Source of the DNA: Nitriliruptoraceae bacterium
GTDB lineage: Bacteria; Actinomycetota; Nitriliruptoria; Nitriliruptorales; Nitriliruptoraceae
Length of the DNA stretch: 34,655 nucleotides
Direction of reading: 5' to 3'
Assembly (NCBI GenBank): GCA_007130695.1
Contig: SLRZ01000196.1
Location: 1-34,655, forward strand
A program made the translations under genes and the position numbers. The notes under the pieces were generated by a model that worked only from the letters and a program-made list of their open reading frames with translations, searched no databases and had not been told where the DNA came from. This document shows, piece by piece, positions 14,739 to 34,513 of the stretch; position 1 is the first letter of the stretch; the number at the start of each line of letters is the position of its first letter.

Positions 14739-16259
14739 ATGGCACAGAGGCAGGTCGGGGAGACGGCGCAGGAGTCCAGGATCCCCGTGGTGGTCGCCGC
14801 CGGGCAGTGCGTCGAGCGTGGGGGCGGGGTCGACGTCGTCGACCTCGCGGCCCGGGCCGCCGGCGAGGCCCTCGACCTCGCGCCGAAGCTGGCCGACGAC
14901 CTCGACCGGCTGTCGTTCGTCGACGCGCTCTCACCCACGGGCAAGGCGCCCGCCGCGACCCTCGCGCGGCGTCTCGGGCTGCGGCCCACGGTGGTGGAGA
15001 AGAGCACGATCGGCGGGAACACCCCCCAGTGGCTGGTGGCCCGCGCCGCGGCCGACATCGCCGCCGGCGGGCTGGCCACGACCCTCGTGGTGGGCGCGGA
15101 GGCCATCGCCTCGCGGCGGGCCCGGACGGCACCGTCGACCGCACCGGCCGCGGACCTCGAGCCCGACCCCGTGGTGGGCGACGGCCGTGACGGGGTCAGC
15201 CCCCAGGAGGCCGCGGTCGGCCTCGGGCTGCCCATACACGTCTACCCGATGCTGGAGTCCGCCCTCGCGCACCGCCACGGTCGGAGCCACGAGCAGCAGC
15301 GTGCCGAACTCGGCCGACTGCTCGCCCCCTTCACCGAGGTCGCCGCGCAGCATCCCCAGGCGTGGTTCCCCGCGGCCCGTACCGCCGACGAGATCGCCCG
15401 GCCGGCGTCCGACAACCGGCTCACCGCCGAGCCCTACACCCTGCGGATGAACGCCGTGCTCGCCGTGGACCAGGGCGCCGCGCTGCTGGTGACCTCCCTG
15501 GCGGCCGCACGCCGGGCCGGGGTCGCGGACCGGGCCGTGTTCGTGTGGTCCGGAGCCCAGGCCAACGACGCCTGGTTCGTCCCCACGCGCCCCGAGCTGG
15601 ACCGCTCCCCGGGCATCGCCGCGGCGGGTGGGGCTGCGCTGGAGGCCGCCGGGATCGAGGTGGACGGCCTCGACCGCTTCGACCTGTACTCCTGCTTCCC
15701 CGTCGCGGTCGAGTTCGCCACCGAGGCACTCGGCGTGGCGGTCGACGACCCCCGCGGCCTGACCGTCACCGGCGGGCTGCCCTACTTCGGCGGGCCGGGC
15801 AACAACTACACCACCCACGGGATCGCCACCCTGACCGACGTCCTGCGCGAGGAGGGCGGCACCGGTCTGGCCACGGGGCTCGGATGGTTCGCCACCAAGC
15901 ACGCGGTCGGGATCTACGGCGCCACCCCGCCGCCGCGGGGGTTCGTGGCCGGCGACACGGACGGGGCGCAGGCCGCCATCGACGCGAACGCCCTCGAGTT
16001 GGCCGACACCCACGAGGGCAACGCGGTGGTCGACGCGGCCACCGTGGCCTACGACCGCGAGGGTGCCGTCACCGCGGCGCCGGCCTACCTGCGCCTGCCC
16101 GACGGGCGCCGGCTGGTGGCCGCCGCCAACCCCGACGAGCTCGCCGGGCTGGCGGGCGCCCAGCTCGTGGGCGCGACGGTCCACGTCTCCGGCGAGGTTC
16201 CCACCTACCGCGTCAGCTCCGCCCCACCGACCGACACCCGACACGAGGAACCGACATGA
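14739..16259 (+). CDS. Thiolase-like protein (TLP1-like, annotated typically as acetyl-CoA acetyltransferase)
   Basis: ATG at 14739 with GGGAGAG RBS; thiolase-fold segments STIGGNTPQWLVARAAADIAAGGLATTLVVGAEA, DRFDLYSCFPVAVEFATEALG, VTGGLPYFGGPGNNYTTHGIA; C-terminal extension of OB-fold-like appearance. Confidence 0.85.
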   Translation: MAQRQVGETAQESRIPVVVAAGQCVERGGGVDVVDLAARAAGEALDLAPKLADDLDRLSFVDALSPTGKAPAATLARRLGLRPTVVEKSTIGGNTPQWLVARAAADIAAGGLATTLVVGAEAIASRRARTAPSTAPAADLEPDPVVGDGRDGVSPQEAAVGLGLPIHVYPMLESALAHRHGRSHEQQRAELGRLLAPFTEVAAQHPQAWFPAARTADEIARPASDNRLTAEPYTLRMNAVLAVDQGAALLVTSLAAARRAGVADRAVFVWSGAQANDAWFVPTRPELDRSPGIAAAGGAALEAAGIEVDGLDRFDLYSCFPVAVEFATEALGVAVDDPRGLTVTGGLPYFGGPGNNYTTHGIATLTDVLREEGGTGLATGLGWFATKHAVGIYGATPPPRGFVAGDTDGAQAAIDANALELADTHEGNAVVDAATVAYDREGAVTAAPAYLRLPDGRRLVAAANPDELAGLAGAQLVGATVHVSGEVPTYRVSSAPPTDTRHEEPT

Positions 16260-17233
16260 TCCGCACGCGCCTGACCGAACTGCTCGGCGTCGACCATCCG
16301 GTCATGCTCGCCGGGATGTCGGGGGTCTCCTACCACGCGCTGACCGCCGCGGTCTCCGAGGCCGGCGGGTACGGCTGCCTCGGGGCGACCACGATCCCCG
16401 CCGAGGAGATGATCGTCGAGATGCGCGCGACGCGGGAGGCGACCGACCGGCCCTTCGGGGTCGACCTGCTCGCCCCCATGACCGGCGACTTCGTCGACCG
16501 GGTGCAGTCGGTCATCGACGAGGGCGCCAAGCTGTTCGTCGCCGGGCTGGGGATCCCCGCCGAGGTCGTGGAGCGCTGTCACCGCAACGGGGTGCTCGTC
16601 GGCAGCATGTGCGGCAAGGTGGACCACGCCCGACGGGCGGTGGACGCCGGCTGCGACCTCGTCATCGCCCAGGGCACCGAGGCCGGTGGCCACACCGGCA
16701 AGGTGGCCACCCTGCCGCTGGTCCCCCAGGTCGTCGACGCGGTCGGCGCCCACGTGCCGGTCGTCGCGGCCGGCGGCATCTTCGACGGACGCGGCCTGGC
16801 CGCCGCCCTGGCGCTCGGCGCCGACGGGGTCTGGGTCGGCACCCGGTTCGTGGCCACCCACGAGGCCCGGGTCCAGGCCGGGTTCAAGGAACGGCTGCTC
16901 GAGGCCGGCGAGTCCGAGACGGTGGTGACCACGGCCTACACCGGCAAGACCTGCCGGGTCATCGCCAACGAGTACACGAGCTACTTCGAACAGCACCCCG
17001 AGGAGCTGCAGGCGTTCCCCCAGCAGGCGATCCGTGCGATCGAGGACGGGGCGAACCACCTCGGTTCCCCCGAGGCGACGCAGATCGACCCGGCACGAGA
17101 GTTCTACCCGGCCGGGCAGGCCGCGGGGGCGATCGACGGGCTCGAGCGGGCGGGTGACGTGGTCACCGGCATGGTCGAGGAGGCCGAGCGGGTCATCGCC
17201 GGGCTGCGTCCCGTCGTGCTGGAGGGCCGATGA
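16256..17233 (+). CDS. Nitronate monooxygenase-like flavoprotein
   Basis: ATGA overlap with the thiolase-like gene; VDHPVMLAGMSGVSYHALTAAVSEAGGYGCLG, VIAQGTEAGGHTGKVATLPLVPQVVDAV, VPVVAAGGIFDGRGLAAALALGADGVWVGTRFVAT. Confidence 0.92.
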   Translation: MIRTRLTELLGVDHPVMLAGMSGVSYHALTAAVSEAGGYGCLGATTIPAEEMIVEMRATREATDRPFGVDLLAPMTGDFVDRVQSVIDEGAKLFVAGLGIPAEVVERCHRNGVLVGSMCGKVDHARRAVDAGCDLVIAQGTEAGGHTGKVATLPLVPQVVDAVGAHVPVVAAGGIFDGRGLAAALALGADGVWVGTRFVATHEARVQAGFKERLLEAGESETVVTTAYTGKTCRVIANEYTSYFEQHPEELQAFPQQAIRAIEDGANHLGSPEATQIDPAREFYPAGQAAGAIDGLERAGDVVTGMVEEAERVIAGLRPVVLEGR

Positions 17234-19122
17234 GCGTCGACGAGAAGCTCATCCGGGCGGCGGTCGACTGCGCGGAGGTGCCCGCGCTGCTGCCGGCCGT
17301 CGCGCAGCTGACGAACGACGAGACGCTGCTGCGCGAGGACCTGCGCCCCGACCCCGACCGCCTGCTCGAACCGGACGCCGGGCTGACGCCCGAACAGCTC
17401 GACACGGCACGCGACCTCGCGTTCGAGGCGCTGCGCGACCATCTCGCCGCCGGCGCCCCGGCCGGCGAGGTCGACCCGGACCGCCTGCGCCGCCTGTTGA
17501 CCTTCGTCGTGGGCGACGACGCGGTGGTCGGGGAGTACCTCCCGTTGTTCCGTGAGGAGCTGTGCGCCGCCGGTGAGGACCCGCGTGCGCCGGGGTGGCA
17601 CAAGGACGAGGTCGCACCCGACACGTCCTTCCGGGTCGCGATCGTCGGCGCGGGGATGTCCGGACTGCTCGCCGCGTACCGGTGCCGGCAGGCCGGGCTC
17701 GACGTGGTGGTCATCGACAAGAACCCCGACGTCGGTGGGACCTGGCTGGAGAACTCCTACCCGGGCTGCCGGGTGGACGTCCCCAACCACTTCTACAGCT
17801 ACTCGTTCGTCCAGCACGACTGGCCGCAGTACTTCTCCACCCAGCCGGTGCTGCTGGACTACTTTCGTCGCTGCGCGGAACAGTTCGGCGTCCTCGACGA
17901 CATCCGGTTCTCCACCGAGGTCACCGAGGCCGTCTACGACGAGGACCGCGAGCGGTGGTCGCTGTCCCTGCGTACCGACGAGGGGGAGGAGACCCTCGAG
18001 GCCCACGCGGTGATCAGCGCGGTCGGCCAACTCAACCGCCCCTCGTTCCCCGACATCCCCGGCCGCGACCGCTTCGAGGGCCCGGCGTTCCACTCCGCCG
18101 AGTGGGACCACGGGGTGACGCTGGAGGGTGCCCGGGTGGCCGTCATCGGCACCGGCGCGAGCGCCGTGCAGCTGATCCCGCACGTGGCCGAGCGGGCCGA
18201 ACGCCTCCTGGTCTTCCAGCGCACGCCGAACTGGTTCGTGCCCACCCCCGAGTACCAGCAGGACATTCCCGAGGCGCTGCGCTGGCTCCAGCGCCACGTG
18301 CCGGCCTACGCCTCCTGGTACCGCTTCTGGTTGTTCTGGCGGAACACCGAGGGAATGCTGGCCGCCACCGAGATCGACGAGGGCTGGGACGACCCGCGCT
18401 CGACCGGCGTGATCAACGACGTCCTGCGGGAACTGCTCACCGCCCACCTGCACAACGAGTTCGTCGAGGCGCCCGACCTGCTCGACGACGTCGTGCCGAC
18501 CTACCCGCCGTCCGCCAAGCGGGTGATCCGTGACGACGGGACCTGGGCGCGCACGCTGCAGCGCGACGACGTCGACCTGCTCACCGACGACATCGCGGAG
18601 ATCACCCCCCGCGGGGTGCGCACCGCCGACGGGACGGAGCACGAGGTCGACGTGATCGTCTACGGAACGGGTTTCCAGGCCTCGCGGTTCCTCACGCCGA
18701 TGCGGGTCGTGGGCCGCGACGGCGTCGACCTGCACGAACACTGGGACGGTGACGCACGGGCCTATCTCGGCATCAACGTGCCGGGGTTCCCGAACCTGTT
18801 CTGCCTGTACGGCCCGAACACCAACATCGTCATCAACGGCAGCATCATCTACTTCTCCGAGTGCTCGGTGAGCTACGTCATGGAGTGCCTGCGGCTCCTG
18901 CTCGAACAGGGGCACCGGTCGATGGACGTACGACCGGAGGTCCACGACGAGTACAACGACTGGATCGACCGGGGCAACGAGCAGCGGGTCTGGAGCGTTC
19001 CCGGGGTCAACAGTTGGTACAAGAACGCCACCGGACGTTCGGCGCAGAACTGGCCGTTCTCCCTGCTCGAGTACTGGAAGCAGACGCGCCGACCCCGGCC
19101 ACGGGACTACGAGTTACGCTGA
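17230..19122 (+). CDS. Flavin-dependent Baeyer-Villiger monooxygenase, HAPMO-like with N-terminal extension
   Basis: ATGA overlap; Rossmann [20 protein letters not shown] fingerprint [12 protein letters not shown] (FxGxxxHxxxW[D/P]), second Rossmann [12 protein letters not shown]; about 135-residue N-terminal extension. Confidence 0.93.
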
Positions 19123-23746: not shown

Positions 23747-23766
23747 TGTGACATCAAACGATGATG
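23747..23766 (+). promoter_or_regulatory. Putative operator, copy 1 (TGTGACATCA box)
   Basis: TGTGACATCA at 23747-23756, 57 nt upstream of ATG 23804; includes CATCA-AACGA-TGATG. Same decamer occurs at 25612. Confidence 0.5.
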
Positions 23767-23803: not shown

Positions 23804-25585
23804 ATGGGCGTCGCACTGTTCGTCGCGGAATCGTCGAGCGAGATCATGGGCGGCAGCGCCCTGGCGAGCTGGCGGCCGGTGGTGATCCTGCTGGGGATCG
23901 TCGGCGGGATCATGGTCCTGCTGTGGGCCCGCGGCGAGGCGGGTGACCACGACAACGCGCTCGCCCGCTTCCTCCTGCGTGGGCCGGGCGCCCTGGCCCG
24001 GGTGACGGGACTGCCCGCCTGGGCGGCCGTCGCCGTGGTCGGGACCTTCGGGGGGTTGCTGGTCGCGGGGTACGGCTTCTACACCGACGTCGCCTACCAC
24101 GTGGCCTACGGCCGCGACGAGACGTTGTTCACGGCACCGCACACGGCGATCTTCGTGGGCCTGTGCCTCATCGCCGCGTCTTCGTTCCTGGGGATCGCCA
24201 CGGCGCACCTCGAGCGCGCCGACGTCGGGGTCCGCCTGTCGGGGATCCGGGTGCCGTGGTCGCTGCTGCCTCTGACCGTCCTCGGGACTTCGGCGGTGCT
24301 CGGCTTCCCGATCGACGAACTCTGGCATGCGCAGTACGGCGTGGACGTCACCATGTGGAGCCCGCCGCACATGCTGATGATCATGGGCGCGGCGATGTCG
24401 GGCACCGCGGTGTGGCTCGTGCTGGCCGAGGCCGGCGCGGCCGCGCACGAGTCCAAGCGCAATCTGGCGCTGCACGCCATCACCGCGACGCTCGCCATCC
24501 AGGGGTTGGCCGCGCCGCTGGGTGAGTTCAGCTTCGGGGTCCCGCAGTTCCAGCAGCTCTACCACCCGGTGATCGTCATGATCGGCGGTGGCGCCCTGGT
24601 GGCCGCCCGCCTCGTGCTGGGTCGGGGCTGGACGCTCGGGGTGCTGGTGATCTCGTTCGCGTTGAGCCAGATCGACGCCCTGCTGCTGGCCGACAGCTCA
24701 CCGGTGGCCACGGTGGAACCCATGCTGTGGCTCGGCTCTGCGGTCGCCATCGAGCTCGTCGCGCTCGTGTTCGGCACGGACCGGGTTCTTCGCTTCGCGG
24801 TCGTCTCCGGACTCGGGGTGGCCACGGTCGGCCTGGCCACCGAGTGGTGGTGGAACAGCACCTACGCCTGGCAACCGTGGACGACGTCGCTGCTGCCCGA
24901 GGTACTCCTGGTCGCCGCCCCGGCCGCGGTGGCGATGGCCGTCGTGGCCGCGGGCTTCGGTGGTGCGCTGACCTGGCGACGCGACCTGGTGCCCGCCCCG
25001 GCGATCCTCGGCGGCCTGGTCGTGATCTTCGTGGCCCTGGCGGTCCCGCTGCCCCGCACGGTCTCGGAGGTCGCCGCGGCGGTGACCGTGCACGAGCAGG
25101 GGGAGGGGCTGGCCACGATCGAGGCCCGGCTCGACCCGCCGGATGCGGCCGAGGACGCCCGGTGGTTCATCGCGGCGGCCTGGCAGGGGGGCGGCAACCA
25201 GGTGTCGGACATGCGGCACCTGGGAAACGGGCACTACGTCTCCGAGGAGCCGATCGAGGTCGACGGCGGCTGGAAGAGCATGCTGCGCCTGCACGTGGGC
25301 TCGGACATGATGGCCGTCCCGCTGCGCATGCCGGCCGACCCGGAGTTCGGGCTCGACGCCATCCCGTTGGAGGACCGCACGCAGCCATTCGAGTCCGAGC
25401 GCCACTACCTGCTGCGTGAGACCACCGACGGCCCCCAGGGGCTCGCGATCGCGGTCCGGTTGCTGTACGCCGCCCTGACCGTCGCGTTCCTCGCGGCCAT
25501 GATCGTCGCCAGCCGTCGCGTGGCGATGGCGCGCGCGCCGGTGACCGACGAGGCGCGGAGGGGGGAGGTGCCGGCCGGCGTCTGA
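23804..25585 (+). CDS. Polytopic membrane protein of unknown function with C-terminal soluble domain (paralogue 1)
   Basis: ATG 23804 with GGGAGGGGAG RBS; multiple TM segments; motifs DVAYHVAYGRDETLFTAPH and DELWHAQYGVDVTMWSPPH; FGVPQFQQLYHPV; C-terminal domain LDPPDAAEDARWF...GGWKSMLRLHVGSDMMAVPLRMPADP. Confidence 0.85.
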   Translation: MGVALFVAESSSEIMGGSALASWRPVVILLGIVGGIMVLLWARGEAGDHDNALARFLLRGPGALARVTGLPAWAAVAVVGTFGGLLVAGYGFYTDVAYHVAYGRDETLFTAPHTAIFVGLCLIAASSFLGIATAHLERADVGVRLSGIRVPWSLLPLTVLGTSAVLGFPIDELWHAQYGVDVTMWSPPHMLMIMGAAMSGTAVWLVLAEAGAAAHESKRNLALHAITATLAIQGLAAPLGEFSFGVPQFQQLYHPVIVMIGGGALVAARLVLGRGWTLGVLVISFALSQIDALLLADSSPVATVEPMLWLGSAVAIELVALVFGTDRVLRFAVVSGLGVATVGLATEWWWNSTYAWQPWTTSLLPEVLLVAAPAAVAMAVVAAGFGGALTWRRDLVPAPAILGGLVVIFVALAVPLPRTVSEVAAAVTVHEQGEGLATIEARLDPPDAAEDARWFIAAAWQGGGNQVSDMRHLGNGHYVSEEPIEVDGGWKSMLRLHVGSDMMAVPLRMPADPEFGLDAIPLEDRTQPFESERHYLLRETTDGPQGLAIAVRLLYAALTVAFLAAMIVASRRVAMARAPVTDEARRGEVPAGV

Positions 25586-25593
25586 GCCACCCG

Positions 25594-25634
25594 TTGCATT
25601 ACACTGGACAGTGTGACATCATCTACTGTCACAC
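25594..25634 (+). promoter_or_regulatory. Promoter/operator region, copy 2
   Basis: TTGCAT-N17-CATCAT possible promoter; ACACTG-GA-CAGTGT palindrome (25601-25614); GTGTGACA-N8-TGTCACAC perfect inverted repeat (25611-25634). Confidence 0.6.
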
Positions 25635-25667: not shown

Positions 25668-27467
25668 ATGACCGCCGTACCGTTCCTTGCCCAGCAGGCC
25701 GATGAACTCGCCGGCGGCAGCGCGATCGCCGAATGGCATCCGCTGGTGATACTGCTGTCGGTGGTCGCCGGAATCATGCTCCTGCTGATCGTCCGCGGCG
25801 CGCCGGGGGACCACCGCTCGGCCGTAGCCCGGTTCGTGCTGCGCATGCCCAACCAGCTCGCGAAGCTGACCGGGATGCCCGCGTGGGCCGCCACCGCCTG
25901 GGCCGGCACCCTCGGTGGTCTGGTCATCGCCGCCTACGGCTTCTTCACCGACGTCGCCTACCACGTGGCCTACGGCCGGGACGAGACCCTCTTCACGGCC
26001 CCGCACACCGCGATCTTCGTCGGGGTCTGCCTGATCGCCGCGTCCGCCGCCGCGGGCATCCTGGTCGCCAACCTCACCGGCGCCCGGCACGGCACGCGCC
26101 TGTCCGGCATCCAGGTGCCCTGGTCGTTGATCCCGCTGGTCGTGCTCGGATCCGGCGCGGTCGCCGGTTTCGGGATCGACGAGGTCTGGCACGCCCAGTA
26201 CGGCGTCGACGTGACCATGTGGAGCGCCCCCCACATGCTGATGATCCTGGGGGCCGCGCTGTCCAGCACGGGCGCCTGGTTCGTGCTGGCGGAGGGGGGC
26301 GTCCGCCCGGGCACCTCGCGTCGGGCCACCGCCCTGCACGCCGTGACCGCGATGACCGTCCTGGTCGCGCTGTTCGCGCCCCTCGGCGAGTTCGACTTCG
26401 GAGTGCCGCAGTTCCAGCAGCTCTACCACCCCGTGCTGGTCCTGATCGCCTCCGCCGCCGCGCTGGTCGCCGTGCGCCTCGTGCTGGGCCGCGGCTGGAC
26501 CCTCGGGGTCCTCGCGATTGCGTGGGTCGCCGGCAACCTCGACACGGCCCTGCTCGCCGGCAGCGCGCCCGTGGAGACCCGCGACTCGGCGATCCTCCTC
26601 GGCTCCGCGGTGGTCGTCGAGGTCGTGGCGCTGCTCGTCGGCACCCGGCATCCCGTGCGGTTCGCGGTGCTCGCCGGTCTCGGCGTCTCCACCCTCGGGC
26701 TCGCGACCGAGTGGTGGTGGAACAGCCAGGCACACCAGCCCTGGACCACCTCCCTGCTCCCCGACGTCCTGGTGGTGGGGATCCCCGCCGCGGTCGCCGC
26801 CGCCGTCGTCGCCGCGGCCTACGCCGGCGCGGTCCTGGGCCGACCGGGTCTGGTGTCCGGACGGCTCCTCGCCGTCGCGCTCCTCGTCGTCGGCTTGGCG
26901 CTCGCGGTGCCCTTCCCCCGCACGGTCGGGGACGTGGCGGTGCAGATCAGCGTCGAGGACCAGGGCGACGGCATGGCACTCGTGCACGCCCAGCTCGATC
27001 CGCCGGATGCGGCCGAGGACGCGCGATGGTTCTACGCCGGGGCCTGGCAGGGCGGTGGCAACACCGTCGCGCACATGCAGCCGCTGGGGGAGGGCCGGTA
27101 CGTGGCCGAGGAGCCGATCGAGGTCCACGGTCCCTGGAAGGCCGTGCTGCGCCTGCACGTGGGCTCCGACATGATGGCCGCGCCCATCCGCATGCCCGCC
27201 GACCCCATGTTCGACCTCGAGGAGATCCCGCTCGAGGACCGGGCCATGGCCTTCGAGGCGGAGACCCGCTACCTGCTGCGTGAGACCAACGACGGGCCAC
27301 CCGCGCTGGCCGTCGCGGTGCGGCTGCTGTTCGTCGCCCTGGCCGCCGCCTGGCTCGCCGCCATGTGCAACGGCGGCCGGCGGCTGGCGGCGCGTGGCGA
27401 GCACGATGCCGGGCCCGAGGCGCCGGACGCGCCGCCCGTGACCGCCACCCTGACGCGCAGCGGCTGA
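25668..27467 (+). CDS. Polytopic membrane protein of unknown function with C-terminal soluble domain (paralogue 2)
   Basis: ATG 25668 with GGGGAGA RBS; collinear with the 23804 gene over its length; DVAYHVAYGRDETLFTAPH, DEVWHAQYGVDVTMWSAPH, FGVPQFQQLYHPV, LDPPDAAEDARWF. Confidence 0.87.
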   Translation: MTAVPFLAQQADELAGGSAIAEWHPLVILLSVVAGIMLLLIVRGAPGDHRSAVARFVLRMPNQLAKLTGMPAWAATAWAGTLGGLVIAAYGFFTDVAYHVAYGRDETLFTAPHTAIFVGVCLIAASAAAGILVANLTGARHGTRLSGIQVPWSLIPLVVLGSGAVAGFGIDEVWHAQYGVDVTMWSAPHMLMILGAALSSTGAWFVLAEGGVRPGTSRRATALHAVTAMTVLVALFAPLGEFDFGVPQFQQLYHPVLVLIASAAALVAVRLVLGRGWTLGVLAIAWVAGNLDTALLAGSAPVETRDSAILLGSAVVVEVVALLVGTRHPVRFAVLAGLGVSTLGLATEWWWNSQAHQPWTTSLLPDVLVVGIPAAVAAAVVAAAYAGAVLGRPGLVSGRLLAVALLVVGLALAVPFPRTVGDVAVQISVEDQGDGMALVHAQLDPPDAAEDARWFYAGAWQGGGNTVAHMQPLGEGRYVAEEPIEVHGPWKAVLRLHVGSDMMAAPIRMPADPMFDLEEIPLEDRAMAFEAETRYLLRETNDGPPALAVAVRLLFVALAAAWLAAMCNGGRRLAARGEHDAGPEAPDAPPVTATLTRSG

Positions 27468-27978: not shown

Positions 27979-32629
<4,651 letters not shown>

Positions 32630-32630
<1 letters not shown>

Positions 32631-34513
32631 CAGGTCTCCTCCCGGAGCAGTACGAGGGCGGCGTGACGCCGCACGGTGGTTCGCAGGATGTCGTCGGTGG
32701 TCGTCACGGCACTGCCTCCGGGGCCACCCCACCGGGGGTCGGCCGTGTCGAAGGCCGTCCGCCAGGCGCCACCCGCGTCGGGCACCACCACCTCGGCGTC
32801 GCCCTCGTCGGCGTTCAGGACGACCAGCAGCTGGCGCCCCCCGGACCGGTCGCGGCGGCGCAGGACCAGGGCCTGATGGCCGGGGACCGGGAACGGTTCG
32901 ACGTCGGGTGCCGCCGGGTCGGTGATCAGCGGCTCGTCGTGGCGCAGGGCGAGCAGGGCGCGGTAGACGTCCCGGAGGTGGGCGTGCTCGCTCCGGTCCC
33001 GCACGGCACGGTCCAGCCGGCTGCGCTCGAAGGTGGCCGGATCCTGCGGATCGGGGGCCTGGCCCTTCCACTGTTCGAACGCGGCGAACTCGGCCCGGCG
33101 GCCCTGACGGACCGCGTCGCCGAGCTCGGGGTCGAGGAAGGACGTGAAGAACTGGAAGGGCGCCGGATCTGCGTACTCCTCGCCCATGAACAGCAGGGGC
33201 ACGAACGGGGACGTCAGCATCGCCGCGGCCGCCAGCTTGCACCCCTCGAGGTCGGTGAGTTCGCCCAGCCGCTCGCCGTGCTTGCGGTTGCCGACCTGGT
33301 CGTGGTTCTGGACGCACACCACGAAGCGGTCGTAGGGCACGTCCGGGGCCGGTCGGCCGACGGTGCGCCCGCGGCTGGGGGAGTAGCGGCCCGCGTAGAC
33401 GTAGCGGTCGCGGAGTTGGGCGACGAGGTCGCCCAACCCGCCGTAGTCGGCGTAGTAGCCGTCCCGTTCGCCGGTCAGGGCCACGTGCATCGCATGGTGG
33501 AAGTCGTCGGCCCACTGGCCGTCGAGGCCCATGCCGCCGGCCTCGGGATGGCGCAGCAGCCGGGCGTCGCACAGGTCGCTCTCGGCCACCACGTGGACCC
33601 GACGGCCGGCCGCCTGTCCCGCCTCGTGCACGGCACCGGCGATCTCCTCCAGCAAGTGGGTGGCCGACTGATCGAGGATCGCGTGCACCGCGTCGAGGCG
33701 CAGGCCGTCGATGCCGAACTCCGTGACCCAGCGGACCGCGTTGTCCACGACGAACCGTCGTACCGCGTCCGAGTCGGGTCCGTCGGCGTTCAGCGCCGGT
33801 CCCCACGGTGTCACGTAGCGGTCGGTGAAGTACGGCCCGAAGTCGTCGAGATGGTTGCCCTCCGGCCCGAGGTGGTTGTAGACGACGTCGAGCCAGACGG
33901 CCAGACCCCGGGTATGGGCCGCATCGACCAGGCGGCGCAGGCCGGCAGGGCCGCCGTAGCTGTCCTGGACCGCGTAGGGCAGCACACCGTCGTAGCCCCA
34001 GTTGCGCTCGCCCGGGAACTGCGCGACCGGCAGGAGCTCCAGGCTGGTGACACCGAGGTCGACGAGGTCGTCGAGGTGCTCGATGACGCCGTCGAACGTG
34101 CCGGGGTGACTGAAGGTGCCCACGTGCAGCTCGTAGAGCACCTGCCGGTGCATCGCCGGTGCGACGAACCCGGCCGGCAGCTCCACCGGTCCGGGTTCGT
34201 CGACGGCGGAGGGGCCCTCGACGCCCTGGGGCTGCCAGCGGGAGGCGGGGTCGGCACGGTCGACGACGTCGCCGTCGGCGCGATGGAGGCGGTAGCGGTA
34301 GGTCGTCCCAGGCGGCGCGTCCGCGACCACGTGGTGGTAGCCGTCCGGGAGCGGCCGCATGGCGAGACGGGACGTGGGCGTCACGGACGGGTCACCCGTC
34401 GGTTCAGCGAGCAGCAGCTCCACCCGTTGTGCGCGGGGTGCCCACACGAGGAAGGAGGACTCGCTCCCGCCGAGCCATCGTGCGCCCAGGGGGAGTCGGG
34501 AAGGATCGGACAC
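32630..34513 (-). CDS. treZ: Malto-oligosyltrehalose trehalohydrolase
   Basis: [97 protein letters not shown] junction with treX. Confidence 0.96.

Follow-up and report, generated by a model that had tools for sequence, protein, structure and literature searches.

Results

The gene pair and its doubled motif

The window, a 34,655-nt stretch of DNA from a Nitriliruptoraceae bacterium, carries on its forward strand a pair of related genes encoding polytopic membrane proteins (Table 1). Paralogue 2 is an open frame of 599 aa coding for a membrane protein, and a search of its own genome matched the same frame. Paralogue 1 is 64% identical to it over 570 aa. Each protein contains two copies of the motif D-x3-H-x13-H, 76 residues apart. 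In paralogue 2 the segment 25950-26234 (+) translates as DVAYHVAYGRDETLFTAPH...DEVWHAQYGVDVTMWSAPH; the two motifs begin 228 nt (76 codons) apart, and both copies are in frame and lie where the preliminary description had placed them. Motif 1 of paralogue 1, also DVAYHVAYGRDETLFTAPH, is identical at 19/19 positions, and motif 2, DELWHAQYGVDVTMWSPPH, at 17/19, the only differences being a V/L and an A/P change, neither at a polar position; the distance between the two motifs is again 228 nt. The claim that spacing and polar positions are kept in both paralogues is thus borne out. Neither window paralogue matched any Pfam or NCBIfam model at E values up to 10, and a search of PDB sequences with P0003, a window family protein, returned no match.

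The window contains just two copies of the 10-mer TGTGACATCA, both strands considered, one before each paralogue; the second copy lies within overlapping palindromes (Table 1). Judged by sequence, the 10-mer is a possible operator common to both paralogues. Farther upstream, 4.7 kb before paralogue 1, positions 16256-19122 encode a nitronate monooxygenase and an FMO-like protein, the FMO match of the latter starting only at residue 135. Downstream, positions 27979-34513 (-) hold a run of alpha-glucan or trehalose-type genes, the one at 30510 being a relative of an isoamylase-like protein.

Table 1. Features of the paralogous gene pair, in window coordinates.
Feature	Position	Strand	Description
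10-mer TGTGACATCA	23747..23756	+	57 nt upstream of paralogue 1 ATG; possible regulatory element
Paralogue 1	23804..25585	+	593 aa from ATG 23804, 603 aa from GTG 23774; architecture as paralogue 2
Motif 1, paralogue 1	24086..24142	+	From translation
Motif 2, paralogue 1	24314..24370	+	From translation
Overlapping palindromes ACACTGGACAGTGT and GTGTGACATCATCTACTGTCACAC	25601..25634	+	Hold second TGTGACATCA (25612-25621), 56 nt upstream of paralogue 2
Paralogue 2	25668..27467	+	Helix 1, two hairpins (helices 2-3 and 4-5), 7 further helices, YtkA/FixH-like outer domain, last helix
Repeat 1, residues 80-130	25905..26057	+	From the end of helix 2 across the outer loop to the start of helix 3 (hhalign and model)
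Motif 1, paralogue 2	25950..26006	+	D95, H99, R104, D105, H113; aligns with PmoC CuC (Asp156, His160, Arg165, His173)
Repeat 2, residues 156-206	26133..26285	+	From the end of helix 4 across the outer loop to the start of helix 5 (hhalign and model)
Motif 2, paralogue 2	26178..26234	+	D171, H175, D181, H189; order and spacing of PmoC CuD (Asn227, His231, His245)
E241, third invariant acidic residue	26388..26390	+	After helix 6 (218-240), same face; 51/51
C-terminal extracytoplasmic beta domain, residues 420-530	26925..27257	+	YtkA/FixH-like (profile and fold)

An undescribed actinobacterial family

The same genome holds a third copy on another contig (37% identical). Searching with P0003 located the family in 8/66 genomes of its class, and across the phylum a profile detected it in 45/396 sampled genomes of Actinomycetota; the named relatives of P0003 (5 loci; 4 plasmid records) were all actinobacterial. 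An alignment of 51 homologues, which omits five loci cut by contig ends (L005, L007, L015, L017, and L018) and from which L006 and L008 were dropped as duplicates of L053 and L052, contains 15 columns that never vary (51/51): D95, H99, G103, R104, D105, H113, D171, W174, H175, G179, D181, W185, H189, E241, and G488. For profiles, eight of the 51 rows at identities of at least 80% were removed and 43 were kept. A plasmid-type branch has a shorter form of the protein, with the spacings D-x3-H-x12-H in motif 1 and D-x3-H-x13-H in motif 2; its set of 13 sequences omits L116, the frame of which is broken. A 416-residue relative encoded at L121 7996-9243 lacks the outer domain and reads GPD rather than GRD in motif 1, and the position of D105 is occupied by Glu in L114, L115, and L118-L120.

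Pfam and NCBIfam give the family no name. Searches of the open-licence literature, outside which subscription papers mostly fall, yielded no description of the family or of a PmoC relative beyond the three-subunit enzymes, and viral-contig scans and phage records with AmoC provided no lead.

Age of the internal duplication

When profiles built from 43 homologues for hairpin 1 (residues 70-141) and for hairpin 2 (150-216) are compared in hhalign, they match with P 4.2e-13 (score 62.8, 51 columns), a score reached by none of 60 column-shuffled controls, of which the best scored 28.6. When the motif columns are masked the repeats still match, more weakly (P 1.2e-3).

The preliminary description had proposed that this internal duplication predates the gene duplication, and that in a phylogeny the segments should group by repeat position. 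They do so: when the two repeats of each of 20 homologues (40 segments) were placed in a maximum-likelihood tree, for which 51 columns are few, the root is arbitrary, and the tool issued a long-branch warning, 20/20 repeat-1 segments stand opposite 20/20 repeat-2 segments with branch support of 89/88. The repeat label requires a single change in 87% of bootstrap trees, a number of changes as low as that in 0/500 shuffles, and the window paralogues pair together within each half of the tree. The window paralogues are 82% identical to each other in repeat 1 and 75% in repeat 2, while repeats 1 and 2 of the window proteins are only 24-29% identical. Both repeats are present in 51/51 aligned homologues, including the third paralogue of the same genome and distant plasmid relatives (20-29% identity), and it is because of this, a stronger argument than the tree, that the duplication is taken to predate the gene pair. 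It is older than the whole family and far older than the pair. Helix pairs 6-7 and 10-11 were considered as repeats 3 and 4 and rejected (P at least 0.079 against repeats 1 and 2, within shuffled scores).

Topology, models and the outer domain

An AlphaFold2 model of paralogue 2 (7 sequences; mean pLDDT 74.8, pTM 0.76) has twelve helices followed by a beta domain and a last helix. Helices 2 to 6 are modelled at residues 72-102, 111-137, 154-178, 187-209, and 218-240, and the motif loops are of low confidence, with residues 104-108 below 50. The loops expected to be on the inner side contain 14 K/R residues versus 2 in the short outer loops, a distribution that places both motifs and the beta domain on the outer side.

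The outer domain matches YtkA in hhalign at the family level (P 1.5e-6, prob 90, 32 columns), and that of the plasmid-type branch matches YtkA/FixH (P 6.9e-5, 66 columns). Its fold resembles CcoH-type 9g6b_C (Foldseek prob 0.97, E 0.33; VIA Z 6.9), the third chain of a cbb3 oxidase NOH complex, which we take to be CcoH, and CrdA (9ll4_A; VIA Z 6.6). No member passes the YtkA or FixH Pfam cut-offs, the best values being E 0.01 for FixH and E 0.049 for YtkA (one plasmid-type member).

Foldseek returned no match at E ≤ 0.001 for either of two models. For the full model, CcmF heads the VIA list (Z 7.6, rmsd 5.7, 193 aligned) and NADPH oxidases come next (Z 7.5, rmsd 4.3-4.8, 161-169 aligned), which would suit a haem-binding membrane protein with an NADPH-oxidase- or CcmF-like bundle in which the histidines are haem ligands. 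Z values of 7.5-7.6 are, however, within the ordinary range of the tool for helical bundles, and the invariant residues form Asp/His clusters in outer loops rather than facing His pairs inside helices; we consider a haem protein highly improbable. PmoC (9cl2_Ba) stands at rank 41 of the VIA matches to a model with pLDDT 71.7, co-linear but within noise (Z 4.4, rmsd 4.5, 156 aligned), and structure search was therefore rejected as proof of the relation to PmoC discussed below.

Match to the copper sites of PmoC and AmoC

As reported for pMMO, the CuC site of PmoC consists of Asp156, His160, and His173 with Arg165 nearby, and its CuD site of Asn227, His231, and His245 (PMC12576850). In motif form these sites read D-x3-H-x12-H and N-x3-H-x13-H, 71 residues apart; the triads of the AmoC in L098 are 74 residues apart, and those of the window proteins 76. 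Motif 1 of the plasmid-type branch has exactly the x12 spacing of CuC, whereas that of the window proteins has x13. The second-shell Arg165-Asp pair of PmoC corresponds to R104-D105 of the family, both invariant (51/51). Actinobacterial AmoC motifs are DGAWHQTAVRDTALTPAH and NEWGHSLWITEEIFAVPFH; those of the family are, in L006 for example, DVAWHIDFGRDEFLFTPAH and DELWHSAYGVDVTMWGPTH. Each repeat thus forms a hairpin of two helices with a putative metal-ligand triad, and taken together the two triads correspond in order and spacing to CuC and CuD of PmoC.

Without the motif being supplied, hhalign aligns the family co-linearly through both sites to nine AmoC sequences, with P 1.8e-4 (21 sequences), 1.7e-4 (43 sequences), and 9.2e-5 (43 sequences, N-domain) for the whole family. 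The plasmid-type branch (13 sequences) gives P 2.7e-5 against the nine AmoC sequences and P 4.7e-6 against four proteobacterial ones. The family-AmoC score of 39.0 compares with 13.7 for the reversed profile, 22.8 for the best of 100 shuffled AmoC profiles, and 31.3 for the best of 100 shuffled family profiles. As further controls, 31 other families score at most 18.7 and 25 single membrane proteins at most 20.2 (CtaG 11.7), while single AmoC sequences (9/9) score 23.6-39.7. The plasmid-type profile scores 41.7, with 100 shuffles at no more than 23.7 and one membrane protein at 24.3; one unrelated mycobacterial family reached 33.2 (P 3e-4) with this profile, so that a P near 3e-4 can arise by chance in about 56 comparisons. 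When AmoC columns were shuffled, a second [DN]x3Hx12-13H at 72-80 residues appeared in 3/200,000 cases. Repeat 1 matches the CuC half of AmoC with P 3.1e-6; repeat 2 has no significant match to the CuD half taken by itself (P 0.15), and motif 2 is aligned co-linearly in the longer alignments.

The ligand columns largely carry this signal, to judge from the profiles. Once the three CuC ligand columns are masked, the whole-family match sinks into the background (P 0.38 or worse); with all six ligands masked, a weak signal survives in the plasmid-type branch only (P 0.0095). The long branch by itself reaches only P 0.0076. Single members have AmoC models as their weak best Pfam matches, at the CuC region (E 0.044 and 0.094), and 2/43 match NCBIfam AmoC_BACT (E 0.0018). 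LtrA matched 3/43 members with E 4.2e-7, stronger than any AmoC match, and re-scans of two sets of 10 members gave no LtrA match. Among PDB sequences the family profile retrieved nothing.

The dependence on ligand columns would be expected if the family were a membrane metalloprotein, of copper, iron, or zinc, that had acquired its duplicated D-x3-H...H hairpin by convergence and was unrelated to PmoC. The structural match to PmoC, which does not rise above noise, fits such an origin as well, as does the internal repeat, which is far more obvious in the family than in AmoC, where the two halves compared with each other give P 0.12. Convergence would nevertheless have had to produce plasmid-type triads that are co-linear with those of PmoC and have the right unequal spacings, together with the same second-shell R-D pair, and it leaves the residual match of the ligand-masked plasmid-type branch to be accounted for. 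We judge convergence to be distinctly unlikely and a relation of the family to PmoC to be likely.

No member reaches the PF04896 cut-off of 26.7 bits, the best being 13.6 bits (L092), and the window proteins have no match to this model. PmoA and PmoB profiles do not match the family (P 0.41-0.79), and neither PmoA (PF02461) nor PmoB (PF04744) was found in any of 44 family-bearing genomes (G124 omitted), while a control genome (G077) has both. Because the cut-off is not reached and the A and B subunits are absent, the family falls outside the copper membrane monooxygenases as these are defined. Likeness of the middle helices to PmoA and of the outer domain to PmoB was considered and rejected (P 0.11-0.64). 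The best name at present would be a PmoC-like family of unknown function.

Genomic neighbourhoods

Plasmid homologues lie amid copper or heavy-metal genes in 7/7 cases (six distinct, the pFRL3 and pFRL4 copies being identical), in a sample that is biased, as plasmids are rich in metal islands anyway. Two sets of neighbours comprise a multicopper oxidase and a cupredoxin. The others, one set each, comprise CopC, CtaG, oxidase subunit III, and CbtA; a cupredoxin, a P-type ATPase, DUF5134, and M56/BlaI; BlaI/M56 and YHS; two heavy-metal P-ATPases, a four-helix copper protein, and a multicopper oxidase; and a heavy-metal P-ATPase and BlaI.

In 13 of 41 loci (the window and 40 chromosomal loci), the family gene is followed in an operon by a cupredoxin-like lipoprotein and then by an unnamed membrane protein of 420-450 residues. 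The lipoprotein has invariant HVH and ELH motifs and matches Cupredoxin_1 in 7/12 aligned members (best E 1.4e-4); the membrane protein had no Pfam match in either of the two members scanned. This last protein (e.g., L082 10428-11753 and L085 10532-11788) is polytopic and bears HGxGGxxDLPxP near its start. Outside this mycobacterial-type operon nearly all chromosomal neighbourhoods are without a copper gene, and a MerR regulator is the most frequent neighbour; a divergent MerR-type regulator of ~250 aa adjoins the family gene in 14/41 loci (e.g., L053 9750-10475). A census covered 116 of the 234 listed neighbours plus a few picked by hand, and did not extend to the majority of mycobacterial-type loci or to some long proteins; in it FMO and regulators of the MerR and TetR types were commonest, and no copper family was among the best 25 of 168. 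By eye, the end of the frame that precedes the family gene in L004, L005, and L007 resembles a TetR C-terminus.

Two of the 51 members, in different genomes, are fused in frame to a short-chain dehydrogenase (SDR; L052 7181-9724 (-) and L065 720-3230 (-)). In L054 and L081 the family gene has a 4-nt overlap with an FMO-like gene; in L081 another SDR gene comes next and overlaps the FMO gene by 1 nt. The genome that is home to L081 (G157) has one FMO-like gene, and that of L054 (G043) has three.

The plasmid neighbourhoods and the lipoprotein operon bear on the main rival to a catalytic role, in which a PmoC-like fold binds copper at the outer face for acquisition, buffering, delivery to extracytoplasmic cuproenzymes, or tolerance, without catalysis. 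Both are consistent with copper handling, as is the resemblance of the C-terminal domain to CcoH/FixH, YtkA, and CrdA, which are copper-oxidase assembly or copper-resistance proteins. The ligand sets, however, consist of Asp and His, lack conserved Met or Cys, and in this differ from most Cu(I) transfer sites; SDR fusions and overlapping FMO genes would be unexpected for a copper carrier, and the bias of the plasmid sample weighs against its contexts. We regard copper handling alone as somewhat unlikely.

Discussion

The observed duplication, strict conservation, PmoC match, topology, and absence of PmoA and PmoB frame our proposal for the family, that it is a PmoC-related, outward-facing two-site metalloprotein and probably a copper-dependent membrane oxidoreductase. 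The N-terminal five-helix module would be a remote relative of PmoC/AmoC in which each tandem hairpin ends in an outward loop presenting Asp, His, and His, CuC-like in repeat 1 and CuD-like in repeat 2. Two metal sites would then lie side by side at the outer membrane face, beside the YtkA/FixH-like domain. The metal is probably copper, given the PmoC match and the genomic context, and the site may be redox-active. The sites would carry out redox chemistry, making the protein a copper-dependent membrane oxidoreductase and probably a hydroxylase, and the outer domain or the neighbouring cupredoxin-like lipoprotein may supply copper or electrons. Alcohol products might pass to the SDR and to the Baeyer-Villiger-type flavin monooxygenase that are fused or adjacent in some genomes.

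We favor an oxidoreductase because the ligand sets are hard, of Asp and His without Met or Cys, because the second-shell Arg-Asp pair persists, and because fusion to a dehydrogenase and neighbours of Baeyer-Villiger type would be natural for a hydroxylase. Our confidence in this proposal is evenly divided, because copper handling would account just as well for the copper-resistance surroundings and the YtkA/FixH domain. The family may work like the C subunit of copper membrane monooxygenases. In its most specific form, the proposal is of a free-standing, single-gene PmoC-derived hydroxylase that operates without PmoA and PmoB, has its own domain for copper or electron entry, feeds an SDR and a Baeyer-Villiger monooxygenase, and retains the ancestral duplicated CuC/CuD hairpin as an outgroup of the superfamily; this we advance only tentatively, as a possible but doubtful reading.

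The family may thus be a distant single-protein relative of the methane- and ammonia-oxidizing enzymes, with their other parts missing. If it is related to PmoC, it would present the CuC/CuD module alone, encoded by one gene in fast-growing actinobacteria and so expressible and mutable by itself, and it would provide an outgroup for the copper membrane monooxygenase superfamily. In a published phylogeny covering 66 genomes, archaeal AMO is taken as the most distant group (PMC6215863). Even if the family serves in copper handling only, the analysis puts a name to a family, nameless in Pfam and NCBIfam, that occurs in the 45 Actinomycetota genomes noted above.

A comparison of the family with known systems shows both shared and distinct features. 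In common with PmoC/AmoC, it has a pair of Asp/Asn-His-His triads, each lying where a helix pair ends on the outer side, alike in order, spacing, and separation, and a positively charged segment that precedes the helix with the first triad. Unlike PmoC/AmoC, the family chain adds seven helices and a YtkA/FixH-like domain, some genomes hold a truncated form without the outer domain, and plasmids carry a shorter form; the second triad, unlike CuD of PmoC, has Asp in place of Asn. With CopC, CopD, and CtaG the family shares plasmid neighbourhoods and the combination of a membrane part with an outer beta domain, but the window proteins have no Pfam match to them, and CtaG scored low as a control in the AmoC comparison. 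The outer domains of FixH/CcoH (PF05751), YtkA (PF13115), and CrdA are alike to that of the family in profile and fold; unlike in those proteins, the beta domain of the family sits within a polytopic protein.
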